24,275 nt of DNA from a virus. The position numbers and the translations under genes are program-made. The stretch lies in the IMG/VR virus record IMGVR_UViG_3300023116_000345, positions 1 to 24,275 of that record; one strand, given 5' to 3'. Below the pieces are notes generated by a model. That model was not told the origin of the DNA and did no database searches. It saw only the letters and a program-made list of their open reading frames with translations. Positions 1 to 21,932 of the stretch are shown piece by piece. Each line of letters begins with the position of its first letter. The first letter of the stretch is position 1.

Positions 1-365
1 ATGCTGACACAGCAAAAACTGATATTGTTCAAACTTTTACTGCAGCTCAGAGAGGAAGTATTGTCACACTGACAGATGGTGCGACAATCACGCCTGATTT
101 TGCGGCAGGGAATAATTTCAGTGTTCTTATAAGCGGAAACCGAACCTTAGCTAATCCCACTAATCTTACTTCTGGTCAATCTGGTTGTATTTGGATTCTT
201 CAAGATGGCACAGGCTCACGAACTTTAGCGTACGGAAGTTATTGGAATTTTACTGGAGGTACAGCACCTACGTTGACTACTACCGCTAGCGGTGTTGATT
301 GTTTAGCATATGCGGTACAGAGTAGCACCAATATTACTGCTACATTAATCACCGATTTGAGCTGA
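1..365 (+). CDS. Tail fibre protein, C-terminal fragment (5' end outside window)
   Basis: An open frame runs from the window edge (first full codon at 3) to a TGA at 363-365. About 120 residues are visible, rich in Thr, Ser, Gly and Asn. They match the C-terminal domain I recognise from many phage fibres: a TDGATITPDFAAGNNFSV stretch, then GNRTLANPTNLTSGQSG, then QDGTGSRTLAYGSYWNFTGG. This is a beta-rich tip domain expected to lie at the receptor-binding end. The stop overlaps the next gene's start (ATGA at 365), so the two are probably translationally coupled. The upstream part of the fibre is not visible, so total length and attachment domain are unknown. The fibre assignment rests on motif recall and on the adhesin genes that follow. 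Confidence 0.8.
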   Translation, partial: ADTAKTDIVQTFTAAQRGSIVTLTDGATITPDFAAGNNFSVLISGNRTLANPTNLTSGQSGCIWILQDGTGSRTLAYGSYWNFTGGTAPTLTTTASGVDCLAYAVQSSTNITATLITDLS

Positions 366-3300
366 TGATTCCCGGAAGCGCTAATCCTCTGCTTTTAGCT
401 TCTGCCGCCGCAGAGCCTACTGATTACGAAATTGAGCACTCAGTGCGTTTCAACTCCGCAGATTCGGCTTATTTGTCCCGCACCCCGGCATCAGCGAGCA
501 ATAGGAAGACGTGGACAATAAGTTTATGGCTAAAACGCTGCAAGCTAGGAACCATACAGTCATTTACAAGTTCCAACAACGATACAATTCTACTTTTTCT
601 TTCAGACGATAGTTTGGCCTTCTGGCAAGGAGGACTTGTTCGCGTAACTACTCAAGTATTTAGAGACTGTTCCGCGTGGTATCACATATTACTGGCTGTC
701 GATACCACAAATGCTACAGCCCAGAATCGAGCCCGCATTTATGTGAATGGAACCGAAATAACGACCTGGACAACAAACACTACTATTACACAGAACCTAG
801 ATACTAACTGGAACGCCGCACTTGCTCACCAGATCAATTCAAATAGCAATAGCCAGTATGGAGATCTATACATTGCTGACGTGTATAGTATCGACGGCCA
901 AGCTCTAGGCCCCACCAGCTTCGGTGAGTTCGACGATAACGGCGTGTGGCAACCTAAAGCCTACACTGGTTCATACGGTACTAACGGTTTCCACCTAGAC
1001 TTTGCTGACACCTCGTCTGCTACTGCACTTGGTTACGATGTAAGCGGTAATAACAACGACTGGACTCCTCATAATCTTGTCGCTGGACCGCCTTACACGG
1101 ATAATGGCTTTAGTACGGTGTTTGACGGGAATGGGGATTACCTAACCACTCCATCTAACACTAATGTGGGTTTTGGGACTGGTGATTTTACTATTGAAGC
1201 TTGGATTTATTCAAACGGAACTCAAAGCACGTACGCTACTATTATTAGCCTAAATGATGGATCTGGTGGAAATGATTGGCAGTTTGAAGCATCAAATAAT
1301 AAGATTTCAATCCGTGACCTTTTCACCCCTACAACCACTTATACCCATAATGTCTGGCATCATGTAGCTTGGACACGGCAAGGTAGTTCGAACTATCTAT
1401 TTCTTGACGGCGTTCAACTAGGGACATTTACCGACTCAACGGACTGGGATTATGGATCTTTTAATATAGGAGCCAATAGAGCTTTAAGTTATTTCTTTAA
1501 CGGCAAAATCTCCAACGTCCGTGTCATCAAAGATCGTGCACTGTATACCGCTGCCTTTACCCCGCCTACAACTGCTTTAACTGCTACTGACGACACTGTT
1601 CTGCTTACCTGTCAAAACGCTACAGTCCGTGATAACAGCAACATCGGTCTTGATGTTGCCGCATCTGGTGATGTAGCTATCGTTAACCAAGGACCGTTTA
1701 ACGGGTACTCAGGTGAGTTCGACGGTTCTGCTGATTACCTTGATGTAACAAGCAGTGCTGATTTTAATTTCGGAACTGGTGAGTTTACTGTTGAGTGTTG
1801 GTATTACAGTCCTACTGCTAGTGCTGGTTCTAACCAAGAGATTTTTCATACAAATGTTTCGGCGGCTACCAATCAACTAAGTTTAAGAACTAAGAACAAC
1901 TTATTCATATTATTCTTTAACAGCGGGCAGCCGACCATAAATAGTGGTGCCTACGTCAACAACAATCAATGGCATCATCTAGCAGCTACTAGGGATTCTG
2001 GTGGCACAGCGCGAGTTTTTGTTGACGGCGTACAAAGAAATTCAGCAGACTGGAGCACTGTCGATATTACCAATGCCGGTTCGGCTGGAGCACCTAGAAT
2101 AGGTAATGGAGTTGACGGTAAGATTTCTAACCTTCGTGCTATCAAAGGTCAAGCTCTCTATACCTCCAACTTCACACCTCCTACCGAAGATTTAACCACC
2201 ACAAGCCAAGGTGCTACTGCGTCTAACGTCAAGCTTCTGACGTGTCAAAACAGCACGTTTATTGACAACAGTCCTAGTGCTCACACCATTACGGCTGCTA
2301 ATGACGCCAGTACTATCTCGGTTAACCCTCACACCGACAAGTATTCGGTGACGTTTGACGGTACTGGGGATTACCTTAATATTGCTAACGCTAGTGGAGT
2401 TGCAGTTGGTACAGGTGATTTTACTGTTGAGTATTGGGTAAATTTGGCAGCAACCAGGACACCATCGGTTTGGTGGGCGTCTGGTGCATCCTCTGTTCTA
2501 ATTTCAGATACTGGTGCAGCTGAAGCAGTAATCGGAAGCTCAACAGACACTGGTTCAGGATATTCACAGCTTATAGATGCATCGTCTTCCTTGGCGGCAA
2601 ATACATGGGGACATGTTGCTGTTGTAAGAAGCTCTGGAACAACAACGATATATCTTAATGGTAAAGCCGGTGGCAGTACCACAAGCATTACTGGTTCTTT
2701 TGATTGTGCATATATTGGCACCCAGAAAACCTACTCTCCTCGTGAGTTGACTGGTAAGATCTCAAACCTCCGTGTTACTAACGGTCAAGCGCTCTACACC
2801 GGCAACTTCCTACCCAGCACAGAAGACCTTACCACTACTTCCCAAGGTGCAATAGCTTCTAACGTTAAGCTGCTGACTTGTCAGTCGTACAAGATCCAAG
2901 ACAACTCCCCTAGCGCACATACGATCACTGTTAATGGTGATGCTGCTCCTTCTACTGTGGCACCATTTGTGACCAGTGGAGCGGGTAGTTTTGACGGGAC
3001 GGGTGATTATTTGACTGTTGCTAGTAGTTCTGATTTTGCTTTAGGAACAGGTGACTTTACCATTGAATTTTGGGCAAAACCTACTGCTGCTTGGGGTTCT
3101 GGAGATACAGTTTTAGCAAGTGGCACTGTTAACCAGATAGATACTTGGCTAATGATGGTTGCAACTAATAAACTGTTGTTTAGAAGTAATGGGCAAAACG
3201 ACATTGAACAGGCTTCTGCGTCTTTGAGTGGTTGGAACCACATTGCTGCTGTTAGATCAAGTAGTACGGTTAACCTTTATTTGAATGGAACATCAGTTGG

Positions 3301-5218
3301 ATCTGGAACTTATGCTAACAGCATATCTGCTAATGCGATAACTATTGGATCTCAACCTAACGGAGTTGGTGAATATACCGGATACCTTTCCAACGTCCGT
3401 ATCTCCAAAGGTCTCGCCCGTTACACCTCCAACTTCACACCTCCTACCGAAGACTTCGATCCAACTGATCCAGACACTACCTTACTTATTCTTCAAGGCA
3501 ATACCCTTGAAGACCTTACTGGTGACCACCCTGTAACCGCCTACGGTAACGCAGTTACAACCACCGAAAGTCCGTTTGAGCCAGTTGCCGGCAGTGATGC
3601 GATGTTGGATTCACCGACTAACTACGGTTCTGGTGATTTGGTACGGGGTAACTATTGTACGTTGAACCCGCTAGATAAAGCTACCAACGGTGGTTCTACT
3701 AATGGAAACTTTGAGTATTTAAGTTCTGGCGGTAGTCCTAACGCCATTAACGGCACAATGGCTGTGTCCTCAGGTAAATGGTATTACGAATCTATTGCTA
3801 CTAATAACGCTTATGGTAGCGGTAACCCAGTCTATCAAGCTGGTTTTGTCAGTCTAGATATTTGGGATGGTGTCTTTGCTAATCCCATGGTCCGTACAGC
3901 TGGAAGTGGTTTCTACGGTTACAGTTACAGGGAAGGGTACAAGAGTGTCAACGGTACGTTTAGTTCATTCGCAACTAGCGCAGCAATTGGTGATGCTATT
4001 GGTTTAGCATTGGACCTTGATGCTGGCGAGCTTGAAATCTACAAGAACGGAACAAGTCTTGGGGTACTGGCTACTGGTTTGAGTGGTACATTTATTCCGT
4101 GTGTTGAATCTGATAGCAGTAGCACCGGCCAAGCCGCAACCGTTAACTTCGGTCAACATCCCTTCGACTACCCAGCTCCGGCTGGCTACAAGTCGTTGTG
4201 CAGCACTAACTTGCCAACACCAACGATTGCTGATGGAAGCACGGCGATGGACGTTGCGCTTTACACTGGTACATCCAGTGGTGCAGTTGTGTCTACACCA
4301 AACATGAGTCCTGATTTGGTTTGGATTAAAGATAGAGGTAATACTTTTAATCATCAACTGTTTGACACGATTAGAGGTGTTAACTCAGCGTTGTTACCTA
4401 ATCTTACTTCTGCTGAAAACAACTACAACTCATTTACAAGTTTTAATCCTACTGGATTTACTGTACCTAATGTAAACGGTACAGGTGCTAACGGTAATAA
4501 CCATGTAGCCTGGACTTGGGACGCCGGTTCTTCAACCGTGTCGAACACAGATGGCACCATAACTTCTCAAGTAAGGGCGAATCCTAGTGCGGGGTTCTCG
4601 GTTGTTACTTATACGGGAACGGATGCTAATGCCACTGTGGGTCATGGCCTCGGGATTACACCTGAACTTCTTCTTGTAAAGAATAGAACTACTAGTTTTG
4701 ATTGGGCCGTCTACCATTCCGCCTTGGGAGGCACTAAGTACCTCAAGCTTAACACTACAGACCAAGCTGTAACTGCTAGTGGTAGGTGGAGCAATACAGA
4801 TCCAACTACTACAGTGTTTTCTGTCGGTAATTCTACTGCTACAGGTAATTCTGATAACTACGTGGCCTACTGCTTCGCCCCAGTCGAAGGCTACAGCGCC
4901 TTCGGCAGCTACACCGGCAACGGCAGCGTGGATGGTCCGTTCGTGTTCACCAATTTCCACCCGAGGTGGGTATTAATTAAGCGCACAGATACCACAAGCA
5001 ACTGGACAATTATTGATACTGAAAGACAAGGCTATAATGTTGATAATGACCCATTGTATGCCAATCTTTCTGATATAGAAGGCACCACAGACCTTGCTGA
5101 TATTTTAAGCAATGGATTCAAGCTTCGTTCTGCAAATGTTGGCGTAAATGCAAGTGCTGGTACATACATTTATGCAAGTTTCGCTGAACAGCCTTTCTCC
5201 CTGGCTCGTGCCAGGTAA
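365..5218 (+). CDS. Giant multi-jellyroll adhesin (five LamG-like domains, SPRY-like, DUF7483-like repeats)
   Basis: This 1617-residue protein is probably a virion-surface carbohydrate- or receptor-binding protein. A divergent concanavalin-like domain lies at about residues 20-225. Four clear LamG/jellyroll domains follow at about 250-425, 448-625, 660-845 and 872-1060. Each has the signature G(D/E)FT(I/V)E.W, then W.H(V/I/L)A..R, a D/NG loop and GKISN(V/L)R. A SPRY-like domain lies at about 1105-1290 (GKWYYES, then GDAIGLALDLDAGELEIYKNG). Three copies of a PELLLVKNR/DWAVY-type repeat, as in the phage repeat often labelled DUF7483, fill 1297-1611 and end in YIYASFAEQPF. No signal peptide or membrane segment is seen. 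The ATG overlaps the previous stop. Similar multi-LamG proteins occur in cyanophage fibre clusters; binding to host surface glycans is inference. Confidence 0.9.
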   Translation: MIPGSANPLLLASAAAEPTDYEIEHSVRFNSADSAYLSRTPASASNRKTWTISLWLKRCKLGTIQSFTSSNNDTILLFLSDDSLAFWQGGLVRVTTQVFRDCSAWYHILLAVDTTNATAQNRARIYVNGTEITTWTTNTTITQNLDTNWNAALAHQINSNSNSQYGDLYIADVYSIDGQALGPTSFGEFDDNGVWQPKAYTGSYGTNGFHLDFADTSSATALGYDVSGNNNDWTPHNLVAGPPYTDNGFSTVFDGNGDYLTTPSNTNVGFGTGDFTIEAWIYSNGTQSTYATIISLNDGSGGNDWQFEASNNKISIRDLFTPTTTYTHNVWHHVAWTRQGSSNYLFLDGVQLGTFTDSTDWDYGSFNIGANRALSYFFNGKISNVRVIKDRALYTAAFTPPTTALTATDDTVLLTCQNATVRDNSNIGLDVAASGDVAIVNQGPFNGYSGEFDGSADYLDVTSSADFNFGTGEFTVECWYYSPTASAGSNQEIFHTNVSAATNQLSLRTKNNLFILFFNSGQPTINSGAYVNNNQWHHLAATRDSGGTARVFVDGVQRNSADWSTVDITNAGSAGAPRIGNGVDGKISNLRAIKGQALYTSNFTPPTEDLTTTSQGATASNVKLLTCQNSTFIDNSPSAHTITAANDASTISVNPHTDKYSVTFDGTGDYLNIANASGVAVGTGDFTVEYWVNLAATRTPSVWWASGASSVLISDTGAAEAVIGSSTDTGSGYSQLIDASSSLAANTWGHVAVVRSSGTTTIYLNGKAGGSTTSITGSFDCAYIGTQKTYSPRELTGKISNLRVTNGQALYTGNFLPSTEDLTTTSQGAIASNVKLLTCQSYKIQDNSPSAHTITVNGDAAPSTVAPFVTSGAGSFDGTGDYLTVASSSDFALGTGDFTIEFWAKPTAAWGSGDTVLASGTVNQIDTWLMMVATNKLLFRSNGQNDIEQASASLSGWNHIAAVRSSSTVNLYLNGTSVGSGTYANSISANAITIGSQPNGVGEYTGYLSNVRISKGLARYTSNFTPPTEDFDPTDPDTTLLILQGNTLEDLTGDHPVTAYGNAVTTTESPFEPVAGSDAMLDSPTNYGSGDLVRGNYCTLNPLDKATNGGSTNGNFEYLSSGGSPNAINGTMAVSSGKWYYESIATNNAYGSGNPVYQAGFVSLDIWDGVFANPMVRTAGSGFYGYSYREGYKSVNGTFSSFATSAAIGDAIGLALDLDAGELEIYKNGTSLGVLATGLSGTFIPCVESDSSSTGQAATVNFGQHPFDYPAPAGYKSLCSTNLPTPTIADGSTAMDVALYTGTSSGAVVSTPNMSPDLVWIKDRGNTFNHQLFDTIRGVNSALLPNLTSAENNYNSFTSFNPTGFTVPNVNGTGANGNNHVAWTWDAGSSTVSNTDGTITSQVRANPSAGFSVVTYTGTDANATVGHGLGITPELLLVKNRTTSFDWAVYHSALGGTKYLKLNTTDQAVTASGRWSNTDPTTTVFSVGNSTATGNSDNYVAYCFAPVEGYSAFGSYTGNGSVDGPFVFTNFHPRWVLIKRTDTTSNWTIIDTERQGYNVDNDPLYANLSDIEGTTDLADILSNGFKLRSANVGVNASAGTYIYASFAEQPFSLARAR

Positions 5219-5946: not shown

Positions 5947-6333
5947 ATGGCTGTAGTAAGTTTTCAAGCAGGAGAGACCATCGCAAATGGCGATGCTGTG
6001 TACGTTGGTTCGAACGGCTTTATTTACAAAGCTAGCGCTCTTAGCAGGGATCAAGCCAGCGTGGTTGGTGTCGCCCTGGAATCTGGATCGAATAATGAGT
6101 TAGTTCGTGTCAATCCTGACTTTTTGTACACCTCGTACAGCAGCCTTATCCCTGGCGATTACCAATACCTGTCTATTGCTACGTCGGGCTCTGTTGTCGA
6201 TTACGAAACTTGGAGTTCTGAGTTTGTCGCTTTGTCTGGGAACGCCTACCTAACTCAGGTTGGTCGAGCAGTAACGACAAGTGGAATTTTGGTCGAGATC
6301 GATACCCCTAATCTTGTAGTTTATAGTCCTTAA
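5947..6333 (+). CDS. Small virion-type beta-domain protein (standalone copy of the fibre split domain)
   Basis: This 128-residue, all-beta protein has no membrane segment. Its order of elements is AGETIANGDAVYVGSNGFIYKA, SVVGVALESG...LVRVNPDF, LIPGDYQYLS and VGRAVTTSGILVEI. The same order (entry strand pair, G(I/V)(A/S) strand, GL/P-G-YY turn, final (I/V)GRAV-S-T-L strand) is found split around the seven-repeat array in the three large fibres downstream. It is also found whole in the next gene. The family occurs in phage fibres and virion decoration-like proteins; the exact role here is unknown. It starts 21 nt after a TAAAAT box and has no strong Shine-Dalgarno sequence. Confidence 0.7.
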   Translation: MAVVSFQAGETIANGDAVYVGSNGFIYKASALSRDQASVVGVALESGSNNELVRVNPDFLYTSYSSLIPGDYQYLSIATSGSVVDYETWSSEFVALSGNAYLTQVGRAVTTSGILVEIDTPNLVVYSP

Positions 6334-6335
6334 TC

Positions 6336-6419
6336 ATGACTTTTGTCTCTGTTCTACTTCTTTTGTTTCTGTACTTTATCGGTTTCAGTTTATTCGCCAT
6401 CAACCCGCGAGACGACTGA
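6336..6419 (+). CDS. Candidate 27-residue single-membrane-span peptide
   Basis: A short frame starts at ATG 6336, two bases after the preceding stop, and ends at TGA 6417-6419. The product begins MTFVSVLLLLFLYFIGFSL and ends in a polar NPRDD tail: one hydrophobic helix with a short charged C-terminus. Such tiny membrane peptides are common in phages, but length alone cannot prove translation. No clear ribosome-binding site precedes it except through coupling to the upstream stop. Chance is a real alternative; the clean hydrophobic-then-charged pattern and the exact fit to the gap are the reasons to list it. Confidence 0.35.
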   Translation: MTFVSVLLLLFLYFIGFSLFAINPRDD

Positions 6420-6434
6420 TCAGTGGCTGTCAGG

Positions 6435-6440
6435 TATAAT
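6435..6440 (+). promoter_or_regulatory. -10-like box (TATAAT), 26 nt before 6467
   Basis: A perfect TATAAT lies in the 47-nt gap before the second beta-domain gene; no good -35 sequence lies 16-18 nt upstream. Confidence 0.4.
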
Positions 6441-6466
6441 TGAGCTAATAGATCCGTGCTTCTCAT

Positions 6467-6970
6467 ATGACTGAGCGGTCGATATTTAATAGGAGATACA
6501 CGGATTATACTCCGATCAGTACGCAAGTCTGGTTACTTAATGGTGATGGTGTAACAACCACAGTTTCTTCAACACAGGCTTTTACAGCAGGTGCAAACTT
6601 AATTCAAGGACAAGTTGTTTACGTTAGTGGCGTTTATGCTCTTCCTGCATCGGCTGCCAGCGGCGTATCTTCCGAGCAGTATCAGCCTATTGGCATTACA
6701 GCTGAAGCTGCATCGCTTTCAAACTCAGTGGCTGTGAATCTTGATGACGTTGTTGTAATTAGTGATGCTAACATCACAGCTGATACAGCTTTGATTCCAG
6801 GTCAGCACTATTACTTGTCTCAGTTTGACGGGCAAGTCACCCGATACAGTACAGCATCTGGTCTTGTCACCGCCGCCAGCGGTTATGCAGCACTTGTGAA
6901 TCTCGGCCTTGCACTCAGCACCACTGAGTTGCACGTCGAGATTCAGCCCCCTGTGGACCTCTTCAGCTAG
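6467..6970 (+). CDS. Small virion-type beta-domain protein, second standalone copy
   Basis: This 167-residue protein begins with a short polar segment, then carries the same module as the gene before it: AFTAGANLIQGQVVYVSG, YQPIGITAEAASLSN, LIPGQHYYLSQFDGQV and LVNLGLALSTTELHVEI. It is a diverged paralogue with longer loops. It precedes the first seven-repeat fibre, whose flanking halves contain the same elements. I infer a trimeric or decoration role in the adhesion apparatus; no catalytic motif is present. A TATAAT box lies 26 nt before the ATG. The start is chosen because it is the first ATG after the box; a downstream start would cut into the N-terminal polar part only. Confidence 0.7.
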   Translation: MTERSIFNRRYTDYTPISTQVWLLNGDGVTTTVSSTQAFTAGANLIQGQVVYVSGVYALPASAASGVSSEQYQPIGITAEAASLSNSVAVNLDDVVVISDANITADTALIPGQHYYLSQFDGQVTRYSTASGLVTAASGYAALVNLGLALSTTELHVEIQPPVDLFS

Positions 6971-6995
6971 GTCTCTTTATTACTGAGGTTCTGCC

Positions 6996-8870
6996 ATGGT
7001 CGCCCGTCGCCCGCTTGTTGTTCAGGATGGTTTTGTCGCTGAACTTCCTGTCGGCGATACGGTAGCTGCTGGAACCTCGACGACTGAAGTTGTTGCTGGT
7101 AGTGGTTTAGTCGGCGGTGGTTCGGTCTCGAGTAACCCTCGCGTTGATTTCGCTCTAGCTGCAAATCCCAGCGGGATTATTTACGTCGGTGACTCACTGG
7201 GTATCGACGGCGCTGCCCAGGTTTCTGCTGATACTGCACTAGCTAGTGGTTCAGCCGCTGCGGTCTTGGCTGATTCGGCGCTGGCTAGTGGCAACGCGTC
7301 TTTGGTGACGGCGTCTGCTGCACTTGCTTCGGGTAACGCTGCGCTTGATTTAGTTCCGACCCTTGGCGGCGGTGGCGCCGGTACGGTTGCTGAGTTTACA
7401 GCTGCGAGCGCTGTGGTTTCGGGTTATGCGGTGGGGTTTGATGATGCTGGGAAGGTTCAGAGTGTTGCGGCGGAGATTACGGATGATAATACAAATCCGA
7501 TGAGTTTCCCGAGTGCTGCTGTCGTCTTTGAATCTGCTAGTTCCCCCTACATCTCCGCCACTTACGACTCCAGCAATAACAAAGTCATCATCGCCTATCA
7601 AGACAGCGCTAACTCCTTCTACGGCACCGCCATTGTCGGCACAGTCTCCGGTACATCCATATCCTTCGGCACCGCCGTTGTCTTTGAATCTGCTACATCC
7701 ACCTACACCTCCTCCACCTACGACTCCACCAACAACCGAGTCGTCATCGCCTACCGAGACGGCGGCAACTCCAGCTACGGCACCGCCATCGTCGGCACAG
7801 TTTCCGGCACATCCATTTCATTCGGCACTGCTGTCGTCTTCGAATCTGCTAACTCCCCATATATTTCTTCCGTCTACGACTCAACCAACAACCGCGTTGT
7901 TATTGCTTATCAAAACAACGGCAACTCCAATTATGGCACCGCGATCGTCGGCACAGTTTCCGGCACATCTATCTCCTTCGGCTCTGCAGTAGTATTCGAA
8001 TCTGCTAGTTCCAACTACATCTCCACCACCTACGACTCCACCAACAACCGAGTCGTCATCGCCTACCGAGACATTGGCAACTCCGGTTACGGTACCGCCA
8101 TCGTCGGCACAGTATCCGGCACTTCAATCTCATTCGGCACCGCTGTCGTCATTGATTCTACTAGTTCCACCTACATCTCCACCACCTACGACTCCACCAA
8201 CAACCGAGTCGTCATCGCCTACCGAGACGGCGGCAACTCCAGCTACGGCACCGCCATCGTCGGCACCGTCTCCGGCACCTCGATTTCCTTCGGCTCTGCA
8301 GTAGTATTCGAATCTGCTAGTTCCAACTACATCTCCACCACTTTCGACTCCACCAACAACCGAGTCGTCATCGCCTATCGAGACATCGGAAACTCTTCAT
8401 ACGGCACCGCCATCGTCGGCACAGTCTCCGGCACGTCTATCTCCTTCGGCACCGCTGTTGTTTTCGAATCTGCTAACTCCGATAACTTCTCCGCCACCTA
8501 CGACTCCACCAACAACCGAGTCGTCATCGCTTACCGAGACAACGGCAACTCCAGCTACGGCACCGCCATCGTAGCCGATGCCCTCCTTTACTACTCCTAC
8601 AACCCCACCGTCAACTCCTACCCCAACGTCCTCGGAATCTCCCAATCCACCGTGGCGAGTGGTTCCACCTGCCTCGTTAATTTGCCAGGAACCCTGTACA
8701 ACGACCCCGCCGCAGGTCTGACAACCGGCGCGTTCTACTACGCCAACCCAACCACCAGCGGCATCACAACAACTTCAACCAAACCGACGTCGTGGGATGG
8801 CCAAGTTCCTTGGAATTACATCGGTCGCGCTGTGACTTCGAGCGGTCTAATGCTGCTTAAGTCTATTTAA
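6996..8870 (+). CDS. Fibre A: seven-bladed propeller fibre, 624 residues
   Basis: The first of three paralogues is probably a receptor-binding tail fibre. The N-terminus (MVARRPLVV...ELPVGD) is shared with fibre B and likely attaches to the virion. An AGSGLVGGG motif (34-42) is typical of phage fibres. Residues 78-118 hold three ~14-residue ALASGNA-type repeats suggesting a trimeric stalk. Next come the first strands of a small beta domain (SAVVSGYAVGFDDAGKVQSV, about 138-157), seven ~52-residue repeats (about 170-527), and the rest of that domain (VLGISQ... to the end, about 545-624). Each repeat reads roughly TYDSTNNRVVIAYRD, YGTAIVGTVSGTSISFG, TAVVFESA. A GAGG site 7 nt before the ATG is a good Shine-Dalgarno sequence, unlike fibres B and C. 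Fibre function is inferred from architecture and place. Confidence 0.85.
   Translation: MVARRPLVVQDGFVAELPVGDTVAAGTSTTEVVAGSGLVGGGSVSSNPRVDFALAANPSGIIYVGDSLGIDGAAQVSADTALASGSAAAVLADSALASGNASLVTASAALASGNAALDLVPTLGGGGAGTVAEFTAASAVVSGYAVGFDDAGKVQSVAAEITDDNTNPMSFPSAAVVFESASSPYISATYDSSNNKVIIAYQDSANSFYGTAIVGTVSGTSISFGTAVVFESATSTYTSSTYDSTNNRVVIAYRDGGNSSYGTAIVGTVSGTSISFGTAVVFESANSPYISSVYDSTNNRVVIAYQNNGNSNYGTAIVGTVSGTSISFGSAVVFESASSNYISTTYDSTNNRVVIAYRDIGNSGYGTAIVGTVSGTSISFGTAVVIDSTSSTYISTTYDSTNNRVVIAYRDGGNSSYGTAIVGTVSGTSISFGSAVVFESASSNYISTTFDSTNNRVVIAYRDIGNSSYGTAIVGTVSGTSISFGTAVVFESANSDNFSATYDSTNNRVVIAYRDNGNSSYGTAIVADALLYYSYNPTVNSYPNVLGISQSTVASGSTCLVNLPGTLYNDPAAGLTTGAFYYANPTTSGITTTSTKPTSWDGQVPWNYIGRAVTSSGLMLLKSI
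7503..8576 (+). repeat. Seven tandem ~156-bp repeats encoding propeller blades in fibre A
   Basis: Seven in-frame copies of a ~52-codon unit, recognisable by YDSTNN or FDSTNN followed by VVIAYRD/Q and GTAIVGTVSGTSISFG. Long tracts are identical at DNA level between units, for example the 47-nt tract at 7974-8020, which recurs in unit 6 near 8286. Codons are mostly C-ending here, unlike the flanking gene parts. The last unit ends in GTAIVADA instead of GTVSGTS, closing the array. Confidence 0.9.
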
Positions 8871-8877
8871 CCCGAGT

Positions 8878-8883
8878 TAGAGT
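8878..8883 (+). promoter_or_regulatory. -10-like box (TAGAGT), 21 nt before fibre B
   Basis: TAGAGTAT lies in the 34-nt gap between fibres A and B, exactly 21 nt before the ATG at 8905. Confidence 0.45.
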
Positions 8884-8904
8884 ATCTTTAGGAACTGATC
8901 AGTC

Positions 8905-10752
8905 ATGGTAGCTCGTCGCCCTGTCGTTGTTATTAGCGGTCAGCGGACTGAGCTACCTCCCGGTGACTCGATTGTTGGCGGTTCTGTAGGTACTCTGACC
9001 GCTGGCAGTGGTTTAGACGGCGGTGGTGATTTATCGAGTACAACCGAAACAAATGTGTCGCTGGCACCGAACCCCAGCGGCCTGATTTTTGTTGATAATA
9101 AGTACCTGGCGACTGATGGTGTCGCACAGCGTACCGCCGAGACTGCTTTAGCTAGTGGTAATTACGCCCTGGCCGCTGGTACTGCTGCACTAGCGAGCGG
9201 TATTGCTGGTAGTTCGCTGGCTGCTACGGCGTTGGCTAGTGGTAACGCTGCACTGGCTGATATTACTGCGATTACTGGCGGCACGATTAAGACTTTTACG
9301 GCTGCTAGCGCGGTTGCGTCTGGTTACGCCGTGGGCTTGGATGATACTGGAAGTGTGCAGAGTGTTATGGAGGTTGTTGATGCAGATACGAGGAATTTTG
9401 GGTCTGCTGTCGTCTTTGAGTCTGCTAGCTCCCTCTACATCTCCTCCACCTACGACTCCACCAACAACCGAGTCGTCATCGCCTACCAAGACGCCGGCAA
9501 CTCCAACTACGGCACCGCCATTGTCGGCACAGTCTCCGATACATCCATATCCTTCGGCACTGCCGTCGTATTTGAATCTGCAAGCTCCGACTACACCTTC
9601 GCCACCTACGACTCCACCAACAACCGAGTCGTCATCGCCTACCAAGACGTCGGCAACTCTAGCTACGGCACCGCCATTGTCGGCACAGTTTCCGGCACAT
9701 CCATATCCTTCGGGACTGCCGTTGTTTTTGAATCTGCTGGCTCTACTAACTACATCTTTAGCACTTACGATTCCACTAACAACCGCGTTGTTATTGCTTA
9801 TCAAAACAACGGCAACTCCAATTATGGCACCGCGATCGTCGGCACAGTTTCCGGTACATCCATATCCTTCGGCTCTGCAGTAGTATTCGAATCTGCTAGT
9901 TCCAACTACATTTCCTCCACCTACGACTCCACCAATAACAAAGTCGTTATCGCTTACCGAAACAACGGCAACTCCAACTACGGCACCGCCATCGTCGGCA
10001 CAGTCTCAGGCACATCGATTTCCTTCGGCACCGCTGTCGTCTTTGAGTCTGCTAGCTCCCTCTACATCTCCACCACCTACGACTCCACCAATAACAAAGT
10101 CGTTATCGCTTACCGAGACCAAACTAACTCCAACTACGGCACCGCCATCGTCGGCACAGTCTCAGGCACATCGATTTCCTTCGGCACCGCTGTCGTTTTT
10201 GAAGCTGCTAACTCCCTCTACATTTCAACCACTTTCGACTCCACCAACAACCGAGTCGTCATCGCTTACCGAGACCTCGACAACTTCAGCTATGGTACCG
10301 CTATCGTCGGCACAGTCTCCGGCACGTCTATCTCCTTCGGTACCGCCGTCGTTTTCGAATCTAATAGCTCTGACTACAACTTTACCACCTACGACTCCAC
10401 CAACGATCGTGTCGTTATCGCCTTTCGAGATGTTGGCACTTCCAATTACGGTAAAGCAGTCGTAGGTGCCCCCGGCACTACCATCGGTCCTACTATCTCC
10501 TCCCAAAACAACTTCATCGGCATCGCTCAAACCACAGCAGCCAGTGGTTCAGCAGTTCAAGTCCGTTTACCTGGCTCATACGACCAAAACAACACCGGTT
10601 TAACCCCCGGCGCTGTGTATTACGTCAATCCCACCACAAGCGGATTCACCACAACCGCGACCCAACCGAGCGCGTGGTCTGGTGCAGTCAACTGGGATCC
10701 GATTGGTCGGGCGGTTAATTCGACCACACTATTGCTGACCGACATGATTTAG
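8905..10752 (+). CDS. Fibre B: seven-bladed propeller fibre, 615 residues
   Basis: This paralogue of fibre A has the same N-terminus (MVARRPVVV...ELPPGDS), an AGSGLDGGG motif, ALASGN-type stalk repeats (about 77-117), the first part of the split beta domain (SAVASGYAVGLDDTGSVQSV, about 135-154), seven repeats (about 163-520) and the second part (FIGIAQTTAASGSAVQVRLPG to the end). Unit 3 carries an extra residue (AGSTNYIFS) and unit 2 ends with VSDTS in the preceding connector, so variation is concentrated in loops before and after the conserved YDSTNN strand. It starts 21 nt after a TAGAGT box; the Shine-Dalgarno site is weak (AGGA about 10 nt upstream). Probably a receptor-binding fibre, either alternative to or assembled together with A and C. 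Confidence 0.85.
   Translation: MVARRPVVVISGQRTELPPGDSIVGGSVGTLTAGSGLDGGGDLSSTTETNVSLAPNPSGLIFVDNKYLATDGVAQRTAETALASGNYALAAGTAALASGIAGSSLAATALASGNAALADITAITGGTIKTFTAASAVASGYAVGLDDTGSVQSVMEVVDADTRNFGSAVVFESASSLYISSTYDSTNNRVVIAYQDAGNSNYGTAIVGTVSDTSISFGTAVVFESASSDYTFATYDSTNNRVVIAYQDVGNSSYGTAIVGTVSGTSISFGTAVVFESAGSTNYIFSTYDSTNNRVVIAYQNNGNSNYGTAIVGTVSGTSISFGSAVVFESASSNYISSTYDSTNNKVVIAYRNNGNSNYGTAIVGTVSGTSISFGTAVVFESASSLYISTTYDSTNNKVVIAYRDQTNSNYGTAIVGTVSGTSISFGTAVVFEAANSLYISTTFDSTNNRVVIAYRDLDNFSYGTAIVGTVSGTSISFGTAVVFESNSSDYNFTTYDSTNDRVVIAFRDVGTSNYGKAVVGAPGTTIGPTISSQNNFIGIAQTTAASGSAVQVRLPGSYDQNNTGLTPGAVYYVNPTTSGFTTTATQPSAWSGAVNWDPIGRAVNSTTLLLTDMI
9394..10467 (+). repeat. Seven tandem ~156-bp repeats encoding propeller blades in fibre B
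   Basis: Seven copies of the same unit as in fibre A. The tract 9781-9854 (unit 3) is identical over 74 nt to 7890-7963 of fibre A at the same unit position. It shares unusual synonymous choices (CGC GTT GTT ATT GCT TAT) that differ from the common form of the repeat (CGA GTC GTC ATC GCC TAC). The final unit changes to GKAVVGAPG. Confidence 0.9.
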
Positions 10753-10757
10753 TCGGT

Positions 10758-10763
10758 TAAAGT
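10758..10763 (+). promoter_or_regulatory. -10-like box (TAAAGT), 21 nt before 10785
   Basis: TAAAGTAC is part of the palindrome AAAGTACTTT in the gap after fibre B, exactly 21 nt before the ATG of the 91-residue gene. Confidence 0.45.
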
Positions 10764-10784
10764 ACTTTAGTGCTCTAGAGCCCC

Positions 10785-11060
10785 ATGAAGACCATTTGCC
10801 GCCTTGCGGACTTTTCAGTCCCCAACGTCAGTCTCTACCTGTTTGAAGACGCCAAGCCTGTGACGATCGAAGCCGATCGCACCGTGGTTGGCGACCCCGC
10901 AAGTCCTGATCTAATCATCATGGACTGCACCACGGCTAACTGCGTGCTGCATGAAGGTGTTACTGATCCCGCAGATTGGTTCGGTTGGAAGTACACCTAC
11001 ACCGACGCCGATGGTTGGGTTCTGAATCCTGATTGGGTTGATCCTCGTACTCAAAGCTGA
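10785..11060 (+). CDS. Unknown 91-residue protein between fibres B and C
   Basis: A 91-residue soluble protein beginning MKTICRLADFSVPNVSLYLF. It has mixed alpha/beta character, three cysteines (residue 4 and two around DCTTANC) and a tryptophan/tyrosine-rich end (WFGWKYTYTDADGWVLNPDW). No catalytic motif, membrane segment or known domain is recognised. Its place between two paralogous fibres suggests a virion or fibre-associated role. It has its own TAAAGT box 21 nt upstream of the ATG and no Shine-Dalgarno sequence. Codon use is ordinary for the window, unlike the repeat arrays on either side. The start is the first ATG after the box. Confidence 0.7.
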   Translation: MKTICRLADFSVPNVSLYLFEDAKPVTIEADRTVVGDPASPDLIIMDCTTANCVLHEGVTDPADWFGWKYTYTDADGWVLNPDWVDPRTQS

Positions 11061-11070
11061 GTCAATCGGA

Positions 11071-11076
11071 TAAAAT
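11071..11076 (+). promoter_or_regulatory. -10-like box (TAAAAT), 21 nt before fibre C
   Basis: TAAAATAA lies in the 37-nt gap before fibre C, exactly 21 nt before the ATG at 11098. Confidence 0.5.
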
Positions 11077-11097
11077 AAAGTTAACTAGGCGGTAGAA

Positions 11098-12933
11098 ATG
11101 GCTGAGAAACTTCCTCTGGTTTATGTAGACGGAGGACTCAGCCAGCTGCCACCTGGGGACTCTATCGAAGGTGTTCAGCTCGGCACGCTAACTGCTGGTA
11201 GCGGTTTGGTTGGTGGTGGCGACCTGGGTACTGGTAATAAAAGACTTGATGTTGCACTGGCTTCCAACGCCAGTGGTGTGATTTTTGTCGGTGACGCCAT
11301 TGGTCTCGATGGTGTCGCTGAAGCTACGGCTACTGAGGCGCTAGCTTCTGGTAACGCTGGTCTGGTTCTGGGTGAAACTGCGCTTTCGAGCGGCGTGGTT
11401 GCTCAGGGTGAAGCTGCAACTGCACTTGCTTCTGGTAACGCTGCGTTAGACGCTGCGGTCAATTTTGTTGGTAGTAGTTCGCTTGAGTTGACTGCTGCTA
11501 GCCCGATCAGTATTGGGTCCGCTGTGGGCTTGGATGATACTGGAAGTGTGCAGAGTGTGAGGGAGATTGTTGATGTGGATACGAGGAGTTTTGGGTCGCC
11601 GGTTGTTTTTGAATCTGCTAGTTCCACCTACATTTCCACCACCTACGACTCCACCAATAACAAAGTCGTTATCGCTTACCGAGACGTCGGCAACTCCGGC
11701 TACGGCACCGCCATCGTCGGCACCGTCTCCGGCACCTCTATCTCATTCGGCACCGCTGTCGTCTTTGAGTCTGCTAGTTCCAACTACATCTCCTCCACCT
11801 ACGACTCCACCAACAACCGAGTTGCCATCGCCTACCGAGACGACGGCAATTCCTTCTACGGCACCGCGATCGTCGGTACAGTTTCCGGAACATCAATCTC
11901 ATTCGGCACTGCCGTTGTTTTTGAATCTGCTTACACCGAATTCATCTCTCCCACCTTTGATTCCACCAACGACCGAGTCGTCATCGCTTATCGAGCTTCT
12001 TCTCTCGGCAATGCCATCGTTGGCACAGTCTCTGGAACCTCCATCTCCTTCGGCACTGCTGTTGTTTTCGAATCTGCTGATTCCGTCAGCATTTACTCCA
12101 CCTTCGATTCCACCAACGACCGAGTCGTCATTTCCTACTCCGACAACGGCAACTCCGGCTACGGCACCGCCATCGTCGGCACCGTCTCCGGCACCTCTAT
12201 CTCATTCGGCACCGCCGTCGTGTTTGAATCTGCTGGCTCTGTCTACAACTCCGCCACCTACGACTCCACCAACAACCGAGTTGCCATCGCCTACCGAGAC
12301 GACGGCAACTCCTTCTACGGCACCGCCATCGTCGGCACAGTCTCCGGCACGTCTATCTCCTTCGGCTCTGCCGTCGTCTTTGAATCTGCTCAATCCGAAA
12401 ACATCTCTCCCACCTACGACTCAACCAACAACCAAGTCGTCATCGCCTATCGAGACGTCGGAAACTCTTCATACGGCACCGCCATTGTCGGCACAGTCTC
12501 CGGCACGTCTATCTCCTTCGGCACCGCTGTTGTTTTCGAATCTGCTAACTCCGACAACATCTCCACCACCTACGACTCCAGCAACAACCGAGTCGTCATC
12601 GCTTACCGAGACAACGGCAACTCCAACTACGGCACCGCAATCATAGCCGCACCCGGTTCTGCCATATCCCCCACTATCTCCTCTCAAACCAACTTCCTCG
12701 GCATCGCCCAAGCCACCGTGGCCAGTGGAGCTGATGTAAATGTATTGTTGCCCAGAGCGATTGATACAAACCAGACTGGCTTAACCCCCGGATATTTCTA
12801 TTACGTCGATGCAGCAACCAGCGGTTTCACGACTGCATCCGGTCAGCCTTCAACATGGTCTGGTGCGTACAACTGGGGTCCTGTCGGTAAAGCCGTGTCG
12901 TCTTCTGGTCTCTTACTTCTTAATCCCCTTTAA
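11098..12933 (+). CDS. Fibre C: seven-bladed propeller fibre, 611 residues
   Basis: The third paralogue begins MAEKLPLVYVDGGLSQLPPGDS, so the extreme N-terminus has diverged from A and B while the AGSGLVGGG motif and ALASGN-type stalk repeats are kept. The split beta domain (AASPISIGSAVGLDDTGSVQSV, then FLGIAQATVASGADVNVLLP to the end) again surrounds seven repeats (about 164-517). Unit 3 is shortened (AYRASSLGNAIVG lacks about five residues of the YRD-GNS-YGT hairpin). Units 2 and 5 share the variant VAIAYRDDGNSFY and a 55-nt identical tract. The gene starts 21 nt after a TAAAAT box. As for A and B, the receptor-binding role is inferred. Confidence 0.85.
   Translation: MAEKLPLVYVDGGLSQLPPGDSIEGVQLGTLTAGSGLVGGGDLGTGNKRLDVALASNASGVIFVGDAIGLDGVAEATATEALASGNAGLVLGETALSSGVVAQGEAATALASGNAALDAAVNFVGSSSLELTAASPISIGSAVGLDDTGSVQSVREIVDVDTRSFGSPVVFESASSTYISTTYDSTNNKVVIAYRDVGNSGYGTAIVGTVSGTSISFGTAVVFESASSNYISSTYDSTNNRVAIAYRDDGNSFYGTAIVGTVSGTSISFGTAVVFESAYTEFISPTFDSTNDRVVIAYRASSLGNAIVGTVSGTSISFGTAVVFESADSVSIYSTFDSTNDRVVISYSDNGNSGYGTAIVGTVSGTSISFGTAVVFESAGSVYNSATYDSTNNRVAIAYRDDGNSFYGTAIVGTVSGTSISFGSAVVFESAQSENISPTYDSTNNQVVIAYRDVGNSSYGTAIVGTVSGTSISFGTAVVFESANSDNISTTYDSSNNRVVIAYRDNGNSNYGTAIIAAPGSAISPTISSQTNFLGIAQATVASGADVNVLLPRAIDTNQTGLTPGYFYYVDAATSGFTTASGQPSTWSGAYNWGPVGKAVSSSGLLLLNPL
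11587..12648 (+). repeat. Seven tandem ~156-bp repeats encoding propeller blades in fibre C
   Basis: Seven copies of the unit seen in fibres A and B. Internal duplication: 11795-11849 and 12254-12308 are identical over 55 nt. Between genes: 12487-12554 is identical over 68 nt to 8415-8482 of fibre A, at the unit 6 to unit 7 junction in both. The array ends in GTAIIAAPG. Confidence 0.9.
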
Positions 12934-12991: not shown

Positions 12992-13357
12992 GTGAGGGAA
13001 CGGGACCTTTTATTTGATCTGAGTTGTTTACAAAAAAGATGCGCTAGAAAAAGATTCCGACGACAAATCTTAGATGAATGGGGTTGCTGCGCTTATTGCG
13101 GCAGGTCCAAACCCACAACGCTCGATCATGTTGTTCCCAAGGCCAATGGCGGGACGACAACCAAGCAAAATCTTATTGCTGCTTGTGGAGCTTGTAACCT
13201 TGAAAAGAGCTCACACAGTTGGTTCGAGTGGTACAGAGCTCAAGACTTTTGGACTCAAGAAAGAGAAGATCGGATTCTGTGCTGGGTAAATCAGCCAGAA
13301 CCCGATCTTTTTCCTTTATTACCGGTTCACTTACCGATGGTGCCTATGGCCGCTTAG
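12992..13357 (+). CDS. HNH endonuclease
   Basis: A 121-residue protein with a complete HNH/zinc-ribbon core: CAYCG, then LDHVVPKANGGTT with the general-base histidine in LDH, then NLIAACGACNLEKSS. The four cysteines form two CxxC pairs expected to bind zinc. The N-terminal helix-rich part (LQKRCARKRFRRQILDEWG) and the C-terminal WFEWYRAQDFW...REDRI stretch fit a cyanobacterial and cyanophage HNH family I recall. The start is a GTG chosen because it lies 22 nt after a TAAAAT box, close to the spacing in other genes here. It follows the fibre cluster and may be a free-standing homing-type nuclease; a packaging role for HNH proteins is the alternative, but that family normally sits beside the terminase. 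Confidence 0.85.
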   Translation: MRERDLLFDLSCLQKRCARKRFRRQILDEWGCCAYCGRSKPTTLDHVVPKANGGTTTKQNLIAACGACNLEKSSHSWFEWYRAQDFWTQEREDRILCWVNQPEPDLFPLLPVHLPMVPMAA

Positions 13358-15107: not shown

Positions 15108-15514
15108 TATCGCAGAGGGTTGTCAGAGCCGTAAATAGTTTCCCTGAGAAGTTCGGGGAGGCTTGGTTGTCTTGTATGGTCGCCATGACTCAGGGTGACT
15201 TGGATAGCCTTACATGGAAACATGTTGTAGTTGCTTACAATACCGGTATTAAGACTGCGATCACCTACGCTATATGCTGTCTTCTCTTAAGGCGCATTAG
15301 CGCTTTTGGAGCTATAGCTCTGACCGGTGTTCTTACTTCCTTCGCTGACCTTGTTACTCATCCCACGCATTTTGGTTCAGCGTGGTCAGAAGCTGTTGCG
15401 ACAGGTTTCGGAGCTTCTTTTTTGGCGTTGATATTTCATCTAGTTGTTGTAAAAATAAGTCGGAAGGGTTATCAGTATGACTCAGTTAAGCGCTCAAGGA
15501 ATAAGCCTCATTAA
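15104..15514 (+). CDS. Holin candidate, three membrane spans
   Basis: A 136-residue protein starting at GTG 15104. Three hydrophobic segments are visible at about 43-61 (VAYNTGIKTAITYAICCLLL region), 66-86 (ISAFGAIALTGVLTSFAD) and 97-117 (AVATGFGASFLALIFHLVVV). They are separated by short loops including HPTHFGSAWSEA, and a basic C-terminus follows. The segment DLDSLTWKHVVVAYNTG followed by TGVLTSFADLVTHPTHFG matches a holin-like family I recall beside lysozyme genes in cyanophages. The 3' end overlaps the endolysin gene by 38 nt, the classic holin-endolysin arrangement. Role: inner-membrane pore releasing the lysozyme at lysis. Family membership is from memory; position and topology are seen. 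Confidence 0.75.
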   Translation: MISQRVVRAVNSFPEKFGEAWLSCMVAMTQGDLDSLTWKHVVVAYNTGIKTAITYAICCLLLRRISAFGAIALTGVLTSFADLVTHPTHFGSAWSEAVATGFGASFLALIFHLVVVKISRKGYQYDSVKRSRNKPH

Positions 15515-16718
15515 ACGCTTTGAAGGTCTGCGTTTAACGAGTTATGTTGACTGCGTAGGTGTTTTAACTATTGGTTACGGACACACGGGTCCCGACGTTA
15601 TCTCTAATCAACGAATTACTGAAGACGAGGCGGAAGATCTTCTACTAAAGGATTTAGTTCGTTTTGAGAAATGTGTAAAAAGTAAGGTAAAAGTACACCT
15701 AAATCAGAATGAGTACGACGCTCTCGTCTCATTTACGTACAACGTCGGTTGCGGAGCATTCGAGGGTTCGACTCTCTTACGTCTGCTGAACGAGGGCGCT
15801 GACAAAATACGGATCGCCGACGAACTCGGTCGTTGGGTCAAAGGCGGAGATAAAACTATCCCTGGTTTGGTTAGGCGTCGTGAGCAAGAAAAGAAACTAT
15901 TCTTGACTAAGCCTGATAAACATCCTCTCTTGGGTCACTCAATTCTGTCGAAACACGACACCTGGCTGAAAAGGAAACCGATTGATTCCTCCCTTTTGAC
16001 GGCAGAGGAGAAACTTTTTACCCCTAAAAACAGCGCGTGGGAGTGGGACAAAATCAGTATGTACCCAGGGCAAGTACACAAAGAGGTCATTCTCTCGAAA
16101 CAACCAGATAAATCCTGGTGGATCTACCCAGATCACTGGAAGATAATCAACGACACGAATGTTATTGAGGAGAAAAAAGAAACCAAGCAGAAAGAGATCA
16201 AATTAGAAGTTCCTTATTACAGCCAATTAGACAACTACAGAGACTCCCAACGCACTTGCTTCTCGAGTAGCTGTGCCATGTTGCTGAGTTCCCAGATTCC
16301 GGGAGCGATTACAGGAGACGACGAGTATGTTCAAGAAGTTTTTGAAATAGGAGACACCACAAGTTCTTCAGTTCAGGTTCAGGTTTTAGATCGATTCGGT
16401 TTGAAGACCGAGTTTATTACTAATGGCGATTGGGACCAAGTTTTTAAACTCCTAGAGAAAGGTATACCGGTCCCGATGGGGATACTGCATAAAGGCCCGG
16501 TATCAAAGCCCACGGGAGGAGGACACTGGATTTGCTGCGTGGGCGTCACTGCGGACAGGACAAAACTCTGGGTGCATGATCCCTATGGGGACTTAGACCT
16601 GGTGTCGGGTACTTACGGGAGTACTGATGGTGAGTACCTTCAGTACTCTATTAAGAATCTTGGACCTCGTTGGTTAGTTGAGGGTCCTAATAGTGGTTGG
16701 ATGATTAGAGCTTGCTAA
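15477..16718 (+). CDS. Bidomain endolysin: T4-type lysozyme (GH24) plus C39-like peptidase domain
   Basis: A 413-residue protein. Residues 1-145 are a T4-type lysozyme: ISLIKRFEGLRLTSYVD, VGVLTIGYGH and the C-terminal GLVRRREQEKKLF. The catalytic set corresponding to T4 E11/D20/T26 is E16, D25 and T31. Residues 146-230 form a linker with an SH3-like look (HDTWLKRKPIDSS, then YPDHWKII). Residues 244-413 look like a C39 papain-like domain: VPYYSQLDN, the Cys in RTCFSSSCAML (C261 aligned with the usual CGPAS Cys), H350 in GGHWICCVGV and D368 in VHDPYGD, so the triad is intact. It would cut peptidoglycan glycan strands and possibly a peptide bond. It follows a holin with overlap. No signal peptide is seen, so export depends on the holin. 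Confidence 0.88.
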   Translation: MTQLSAQGISLIKRFEGLRLTSYVDCVGVLTIGYGHTGPDVISNQRITEDEAEDLLLKDLVRFEKCVKSKVKVHLNQNEYDALVSFTYNVGCGAFEGSTLLRLLNEGADKIRIADELGRWVKGGDKTIPGLVRRREQEKKLFLTKPDKHPLLGHSILSKHDTWLKRKPIDSSLLTAEEKLFTPKNSAWEWDKISMYPGQVHKEVILSKQPDKSWWIYPDHWKIINDTNVIEEKKETKQKEIKLEVPYYSQLDNYRDSQRTCFSSSCAMLLSSQIPGAITGDDEYVQEVFEIGDTTSSSVQVQVLDRFGLKTEFITNGDWDQVFKLLEKGIPVPMGILHKGPVSKPTGGGHWICCVGVTADRTKLWVHDPYGDLDLVSGTYGSTDGEYLQYSIKNLGPRWLVEGPNSGWMIRAC

Positions 16719-17758: not shown

Positions 17759-17895
17759 TGAGTTCACAAGCCGATACTGTCCGTATGGCAGGTATGCGTC
17801 TGGGTGCTGGTCCTGCGGATATCGTCCGCATGGTCTCGAACCCCCGTGAGATCACTGCTAGGTTGAGGTATCAACAGACTTTTCCTAAGAGCTGA
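17755..17895 (+). CDS. Unknown 46-residue protein coupled to thyX
   Basis: A 46-residue frame from ATG 17755 (or the adjacent ATG 17758) to TGA 17893-17895. It overlaps the gene before (ATGA) and the thyX start after (TGATG). The product begins MMSSQADTVRMAGMRLGAGP and continues ADIVRMVSNPREITARLRYQ, ending QTFPKS. It is basic, probably one or two helices, with four further methionines. No family is recognised. Perfect tiling between two genes, with both overlaps, argues that it is translated. It could regulate or only couple thyX translation; nothing in the sequence shows a molecular role. Confidence 0.55.
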   Translation: MMSSQADTVRMAGMRLGAGPADIVRMVSNPREITARLRYQQTFPKS

Positions 17896-18590
17896 TGCTC
17901 CACTCTGCTGAGCTCGACTGGATTACTCCTGAAGCAGAAAAAGTAATTGCTCGTCACGCTCGGGTTTCGACCAAGAACCCCGATCGAGATGAATACGCTC
18001 GTCTCCTCGCCTTTTGCATCAAACACGGTCACTGGTCTGTGTTTGAGCAAGCTTCGGCGTCCTTTGGAATTACCACGACGCGTGCGATAAGCCCTCAGAT
18101 CTTGCGTCACCGAAGTTTCGTATATCAAGAGCTTTCCCAGAGATACACCAACCCGTGGGAAACCCTTGAAGAGGAGAAACTAGAAGATCCGTACAAGGTC
18201 GACCTTCGCTTTCAAGGCGAGACGAACCGCCAGTGCAGTGGTGAGCAGCTGCCGCTGTACCTCCGAGAGCTTTATTGGGACAAGATTAAAGAATTAGATC
18301 GCCACTCACAGGAGGTATACAATGAATTATTGGCTGCAGGAGTATCTCGTGAGTGTTCCAGAAATGTACTCCCTTTATATACTCCTACTCGCCTGCATAT
18401 GTCAGGTACCATCAGAAGTTTTATCCACTACGTTGGCCTTCGCGGCAAAGAGGATACTCAACTAGAGCATCGTCAGATCGCTCGAGCTATCGGGTACAAC
18501 CTCGCAAACCATTTACCCGTGGTTGTCGCTGCAATTAAGGAGTCTGAAGAAAGTTCTCTCTCAGGGTGGGACTTTTTAAAGGGCTCCTAA
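17895..18590 (+). CDS. thyX: Flavin-dependent thymidylate synthase ThyX
   Basis: A 231-residue enzyme making dTMP from dUMP with methylene-tetrahydrofolate, FAD and NADPH, feeding phage DNA synthesis in the cytoplasm. The ThyX signature RHRx7S is present as RHRSFVYQELS (residues 71-81, then QRY). Upstream, HWSVFEQASASFGI is the folate/flavin region; downstream, SRECSRNVLPLYTPTRLHMSG (around 154-174) gives the conserved R-x-x-LP substrate-binding segment and FIHYVGLR...QLEHRQIA completes the core. Length fits the family. The signature has SFVYQ where many bacterial enzymes have xxSxN, a form I associate with cyanophage ThyX. The ATG overlaps the preceding stop. The TAA overlaps the stop of the convergent membrane-protein gene. 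Confidence 0.95.
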   Translation: MLHSAELDWITPEAEKVIARHARVSTKNPDRDEYARLLAFCIKHGHWSVFEQASASFGITTTRAISPQILRHRSFVYQELSQRYTNPWETLEEEKLEDPYKVDLRFQGETNRQCSGEQLPLYLRELYWDKIKELDRHSQEVYNELLAAGVSRECSRNVLPLYTPTRLHMSGTIRSFIHYVGLRGKEDTQLEHRQIARAIGYNLANHLPVVVAAIKESEESSLSGWDFLKGS

Positions 18591-21911: not shown

Positions 21912-21932
21912 GGAACTCACGGAGTGATGTGT

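Follow-up and report, generated by a model that had tools for sequence, protein, structure and literature searches.

Gene content of the locus

The stretch of DNA analyzed here (the window) is a single viral record of 24,275 bases (IMGVR_UViG_3300023116_000345, positions 1 to 24,275). It comes from a marine phage, in which, as judged from structure models, three fibre proteins carry a propeller within a loop of a decoration-fold domain. All genes and motifs named in a preliminary description of this DNA were recovered at its coordinates. Two small genes, P128 and P167, precede fibres A, B, and C (Table 1), and are separated by only 133 bp. The gene order P167-A-B-C is kept in eleven phages compared, with P128 upstream wherever the compared sequence extends that far. 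In some relatives, P128 is followed by a 210-213 aa gene with a fibre-like stalk segment (L176:2257-2895, L178:4238-4876, and L028:658-1287). Within a phage collection, megablast identified no close relatives, and tblastn identified none to P128.

Table 1. Coordinates of the genes, host domain halves, and inserts in the window
Feature	Position	Strand	Description	Basis
P128	5947..6333	+	128 aa; intact, predicted beta-tulip (decoration-fold) protein	AlphaFold2 model and structure matches
P128 residues 29-40	6031..6066	+	Strand 3-strand 4 connection with short helix 34-37; counterpart of the propeller insertion site	hhalign; P128 and fibre C models; beta-tulip definition in PMC7602432
P167	6467..6970	+	Second intact domain copy (~residues 36-158) with N-terminal extension	tblastn, hhalign
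Fibre A	6996..8870	+	624 aa
Fibre A host domain, first half	7395..7469	+	Strands 1-3	Profile alignment
Fibre A insert	7470..8591	+	Predicted seven-bladed propeller	Repeats; fold by analogy with fibre C model
Fibre A host domain, second half	8592..8867	+		Profile alignment
Fibre B	8905..10752	+	615 aa
Fibre B host domain, first half	9295..9369	+		Profile alignment
Fibre B insert	9370..10476	+	Predicted seven-bladed propeller	Gap between halves; DNA comparison with L007 B
Fibre B host domain, second half	10477..10749	+		Profile alignment
Fibre C	11098..12933	+	611 aa
Fibre C host domain, first half	11482..11562	+	Strands 1-3	Model strands 8-13, 22-25, 31-33
Fibre C insert	11563..12657	+	Predicted seven-bladed propeller, model residues ~35-404	Model and structure matches
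Fibre C host domain, second half	12658..12930	+		Model; tblastn to P128 8.4e-5

Several other genes surround the cluster. Positions 365-5218 encode a 1617-residue protein that contains several LamG-like domains, a SPRY domain, and DUF7483, and that has long PHROG matches to virion structural and tail fibre proteins. Fibre C is directly followed by an HNH endonuclease gene (12992-13357; PF01844, E 3.6e-12). Positions 15477-16718 encode an endolysin with PHROG lysis matches, in which, by eye, a lysozyme-like part precedes one that looks like a peptidase. On the opposite strand lie a gene that by eye encodes a ThyX-like thymidylate synthase (17895-18590) and a D5-like DNA primase (19140-21920; phrog_1156, E 5e-44). 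Long open frames are also present in other frames over the propeller repeats (9203-9883, 226 aa; 11567-12646, 359 aa), and are probably a by-product of the codon usage of the repeats.

A domain intact in P128 and P167 is split in fibres A-C

The preliminary description proposed that a small beta domain is uninterrupted in the 128- and 167-residue proteins, and that the same domain is split around the repeats in fibres A-C by an insertion of ~360 residues. Our measurements confirm both points, as the gap between the host halves is 375, 370, and 366 aa in fibres A, B, and C, respectively, and the flanks align co-linearly with the intact domain. For this comparison, both flanks were joined without the repeats into a profile built from 210 distinct filled relatives, which in hhalign matched the families of both P128 and P167 (21 and 25 sequences, respectively). 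The fused flanks matched P128 residues 4-117 with a probability of 97.7% (E 2.5e-12) and the P167 domain with a probability of 96.2% (E 2.2e-9), in each case co-linearly across the join. One reversed and 59 column-shuffled control profiles reached top scores of only 17.4 and 19.0, compared to real scores of 70.6 and 54.9 for P128 and P167, which rules out a chance likeness of beta-rich sequences. Aligned separately by hhalign, the two halves fell in order on P128, with the pre-half at residues 4-26 (88.8%) and the post-half at residues 29-117 (95.1%). On P167, the pre-half was weak (6.3%) and only the post-half (95.1%) was convincing alone. In addition, tblastn matched P128 directly with two neighbours, P167 (2.5e-11) and the C-flank of fibre C (8.4e-5). 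Together, these profile comparisons show that the fibre flanks, P128, and P167 share one domain, with the predicted propeller inserted in the fibre copies. The proposal thereby withstood the test that the preliminary description had set for its own refutation.

Structure predictions of both forms are consistent with this arrangement, as the strand spacing in the P128 and fibre C models matches on both sides of the insert. The P128 model has strands at residues 4-8, 17-20, and 26-28, and then at 41-43, 52-56, and 72-75. The corresponding strands in the fibre C model lie at 8-13, 22-25, and 31-33 before the propeller and at 415-417, 426-430, and 447-451 after it.

Predicted fold of the host domain

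The AlphaFold2 model of P128 was built from 46 homologues (pLDDT 85.9, pTM 0.72), and matches capsid stabilizing/decoration proteins, the best being that of HFTV1 (8qsy chain, Z 12.0), followed by those of mycobacteriophage Adjutor (8saj, Z 10.9) and cyanophage Pam3 (8hdt, Z 9.9). These alignments span 107-115 residues, nearly the whole length of the model, and constitute a significant structural match to solved beta-tulip members. For lambda gpD, the match is Z 5.0 over 59 residues. The beta-tulip fold is defined as an antiparallel barrel of five strands in which strands 3 and 4 are separated by a helix (PMC7602432), and the strand assignments of the P128 model place helix 34-37 in this same position, between strands 26-28 and 41-43. 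In the fibre C model, it is this strand 3-strand 4 connection that holds the propeller. A beta-tulip fold, as found in capsid cement/decoration proteins, is predicted for P128 and, by the shared domain, for the fibre host domains. With the fibre model as query, propellers took up the Foldseek and VIA-align lists, which were therefore uninformative on the fibre host domain.

Comparison to the Pfam cement families is consistent with this assignment at a level below the curated cut-offs, and agrees from the P128/P167 and the empty-fibre sides. No member examined passed the gathering score for a cement family, with P128 scoring 15.4 bits against a cut-off of 24 for PF09956 and 14.1 bits against 27 for PF22758. 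At E values up to 0.1, PF09956 matched 17 of the 46 P128/P167 members (best E 9.6e-4), while the best of the fibres that lack an insert (L174B) reached E 1.4e-4 and 22.6 bits, again with the cut-off at 24.

Predicted fold and variability of the insert

Each of fibres A, B, and C contains exactly seven repeats of ~52 aa. The fibre C host and insert were modelled together from 80 sequences (pLDDT 94.5, pTM 0.89), and the insert is predicted to form a seven-bladed beta-propeller with four-stranded blades. Its best structure match is YncE (Z 33.4), and it matches the lectins BP39L and PLL/PHL at Z ~30-32 with 7-11% identity, so that its likeness to PLL/PHL-type propeller lectins is one of fold match only. 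The propeller matches as a whole span lectins, WD40 proteins, YncE, integrins, and sialidases. Pfam matches within the repeats (Cyclophil_like2, GDH_2nd, NitrOD1, and others) were rejected as spurious, as all lay inside the repeats and no single stretch passed alone. When diverged inserts in relatives were tested as propellers by profile, L010A+L028A were clear, and L039A and L089A-C were not.

The strand order suggests that the chain enters the propeller at the start of strand D and exits after strand C of the last blade, with the N-terminal strand closing the ring. Among 1411 repeats, variability peaks at repeat columns 13-19 and at columns 33, 35, and 39, which fall where strand A begins and in the B-C loop. 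Variable positions thus cluster at the D-A edge and in the B-C loop, and the C-D loop hardly varies. Given the usual propeller topology, the variable positions would lie on the face opposite the tether. Entry and exit of the chain would share one propeller face, joined to the host domain, with the most variable loops on the other. It could be argued that the propeller is an enzyme or a structural spacer instead of a receptor-binding head, as its structure matches include sialidases, YncE, and WD40 proteins and no ligand is known for it. However, variable D-A edges and B-C loops beside a nearly invariant C-D loop are expected of a binding face and not of a universally shared active site, and we regard an enzyme or spacer as possible but rather unlikely.

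Empty, filled, and doubly filled relatives

In related contigs, the gap between the host halves is quantal, at ~0, ~340-420, or 720+ aa. Empty orthologues were found for fibre A (L007:5033-5773), fibre B (L174:5150-5896), fibre C (L174:6245-6979), and a fibre at the C position (L180:12633-13373). At the empty joins, a short linker connects the host halves, the open frame is kept, and there is no blade remnant. In L174, one filled fibre is accompanied by two empty ones, and in L100, from another phage group, a 117-residue empty gene adjoins a 485-residue filled gene. An intact form at L014:5604-5933 was used as support only, because the contig ends within the gene. Additional inserts are also observed. 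In L054 (two genes) and L055, about seven repeats at the first site are accompanied by seven more at a second site in the later host half. In L060 and L167, this second site is occupied by another type of repeat, which L070 has further along. A contig labelled Euryarchaeota encodes a 2350-residue protein with four tandem host-insert units (L199:3448-10497).

A cultured relative, Lentibacter phage vB_LenP_ICBM2, encodes a homologue (AYP28108.1) that resembles fibres A-C in having host halves around a propeller, but this propeller is diverged, with only 3 repeats reaching threshold. The genes around it are annotated as tail protein and tail assembly chaperones, and no P128/P167 homologue was found near it within the region searched.

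Inserts do not follow their flanks

By pairwise identity, the nearest neighbours of the host domains are same-position orthologues in nearly all rows, but those of the inserts often are not. For each window fibre, the nearest host domain is that of its L007 counterpart (84, 94, and 87% for A, B, and C), while each window insert is closest to another window insert (80-82%). Similarly, the L005B insert is closest to that of L010C (86%) and the L009A insert to that of L039C (86%). Exchange is not universal, as some inserts track their hosts (L009B and L039B, 94-95%). The same contrast is apparent in the DNA of fibre B from the window and L007, where most of both flanks is 95-100% identical and the propeller ~33-60% (90-100% over codons 1-140, ~33-60% from codons 161 to 520, and 95-97% after codon 540). 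Junction maps place the change in identity at a GLDDxGxVQ motif before the insert and an NNFIGI motif after it, near the strand 3 and strand 4 junctions. In trees of the same 21 fibres, fibre position requires 2 changes for the hosts and 7 for the inserts, with the insert tree having long branches and many unsupported forks. In these sequences, the flanks follow fibre position and the inserts do not.

A possible concern is that the empty fibres are degenerate, recent propeller deletions without a role, and that the mosaics are assembly errors between near-identical repeats. The contigs are metagenomic, their repeats are prone to misassembly, and the empty forms stand single among filled sisters, as this explanation would predict. 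Against it, the empty genes retain open frames and a short linker free of blade remnants, L174 combines two empty fibres with a filled one, and similar mosaics occur in the independent contigs L005, L007, L009, L010, and L039. Recurrence in several contigs counts against a general artefact, though single errors are possible, and we consider this explanation improbable.

Evolutionary order of intact and filled forms

The preliminary description viewed the cluster as a before-and-after picture of how the fibre was built. The presence of a propeller in a small beta domain that is whole in two neighbouring genes holds, but the view of those two genes as the "before" of the fibres does not. In the domain tree, one branch (SH-aLRT 99) splits the P128 and P167 families from all fibre hosts, with long separating branches, and closer empty forms are present as orthologues in L007 and L174. 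P128 and P167 are also kept in phages with unrelated fibres. No P128/P167 homologue longer than 200 aa was found, and thus none carries the insert. On this phylogeny, P128 and P167 are an old clade of their own and represent separate, older relatives of the fibre domain.

In a simple build-up, P128/P167-like cluster genes would be the direct ancestors of the fibres, with the propeller gained once and diverging vertically since. Intact and filled domains within one gene cluster are compatible with such a history, as are the small decoration proteins matched by P128, which have no room for a propeller. However, the position of P128 and P167 across a long branch from the fibre hosts, the closer "befores" among the empty orthologues, and the failure of inserts to follow flanks all argue against it, and the mosaic pattern already contradicts it for recent history. 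We therefore view a simple build-up as very improbable. Because the small decoration proteins are too short for a propeller, an intact form preceding a filled one is supported for the deep past only. The six empty fibres are each single among filled ones, requiring 6 changes for 6 rows in a tree with few columns and long branches. With the empty forms scattered in this way, the propeller may have been lost or exchanged in recent changes, a pattern unlike that of a single build-up.

Discussion

Our analysis has provided insight into how a phage fibre may present different heads from an otherwise conserved protein. We consider it likely that a conserved socket, predicted to have a decoration fold, displays exchangeable and putatively ligand-binding propellers on the fibre. 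In this view, each of fibres A-C would terminate with a beta-tulip domain, and a complete seven-bladed propeller would occupy the connection between its strands 3 and 4, with the small domain acting as the conserved socket and the propeller as the exchangeable binding head. The opposite, variable face would be free to contact a ligand on the cell surface, which is probably a glycan. The propeller would be replaced, homogenized, or removed by recombination within conserved motifs of the host domain that lie immediately outside the junctions, and the host domain would keep its fibre-specific sequence through the exchange. The variable face and the swapping of propellers suggest that the propeller is a receptor-binding head, probably one that recognizes the host. 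We infer that the fibres form trimers, bind a receptor, and are located on the tail.

A broader proposal, to which we give even odds, is that the decoration-fold domain serves in nature as a plug-in socket. Whole propeller-like repeats, of two or more types, would fit into three or more of its loops, and recombination would use short conserved host motifs as handles, allowing marine phages to swap, copy, double, or drop heads with the rest of the fibre unaltered. Phage receptor-binding parts are known to be exchanged, usually as swapped tips. Here, a whole domain appears to be exchanged inside another domain, and close relatives naturally have the same fibre with and without its insert. These empty/filled pairs would allow the contribution of one binding head to be tested. 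In addition, the arrangement links capsid decoration proteins to fibre evolution and offers a naturally occurring model for how a small scaffold can accommodate large insertions. A limited search of the literature returned no paper on a decoration protein carrying an inserted propeller, though one may exist outside its scope.

The predicted fibre architecture can be compared to several known systems. Relative to the phage beta-tulip decoration proteins, the fibre copies differ in that they end a stalked protein and a predicted propeller replaces the helix. A similar fold region occurs in the phi29 appendages, namely the base of head fibre gp8.5 (6qyy, Z 7.3) and the C-terminal fragment of gp12 (3gqh, Z 7.7), both at Z scores near the level common for unrelated folds. 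We found no propeller insertion described for either phi29 protein. The phi11 receptor-binding protein Gp45 is a fibre-like trimer with a beta-propeller that is closed by an N-terminal strand and has a proposed sugar pocket, but its propeller has five blades and lies in line between stem and tower instead of being inserted in a beta-tulip (PMC4901313). The C-terminal domain of PhiKZ gp131 is a seven-bladed propeller at the baseplate periphery with a suggested role in receptor binding (PMC4901313). By that description it resembles the inserts of fibres A-C in blade number, with no beta-tulip host described for gp131. Fibres of another build are also found beside P128 and P167 homologues, as three contigs encode 503-residue fibres with about ten stalk-type repeats and no propeller (L090:8001-9509, L091:6698-8206, and L196:2862-4370).
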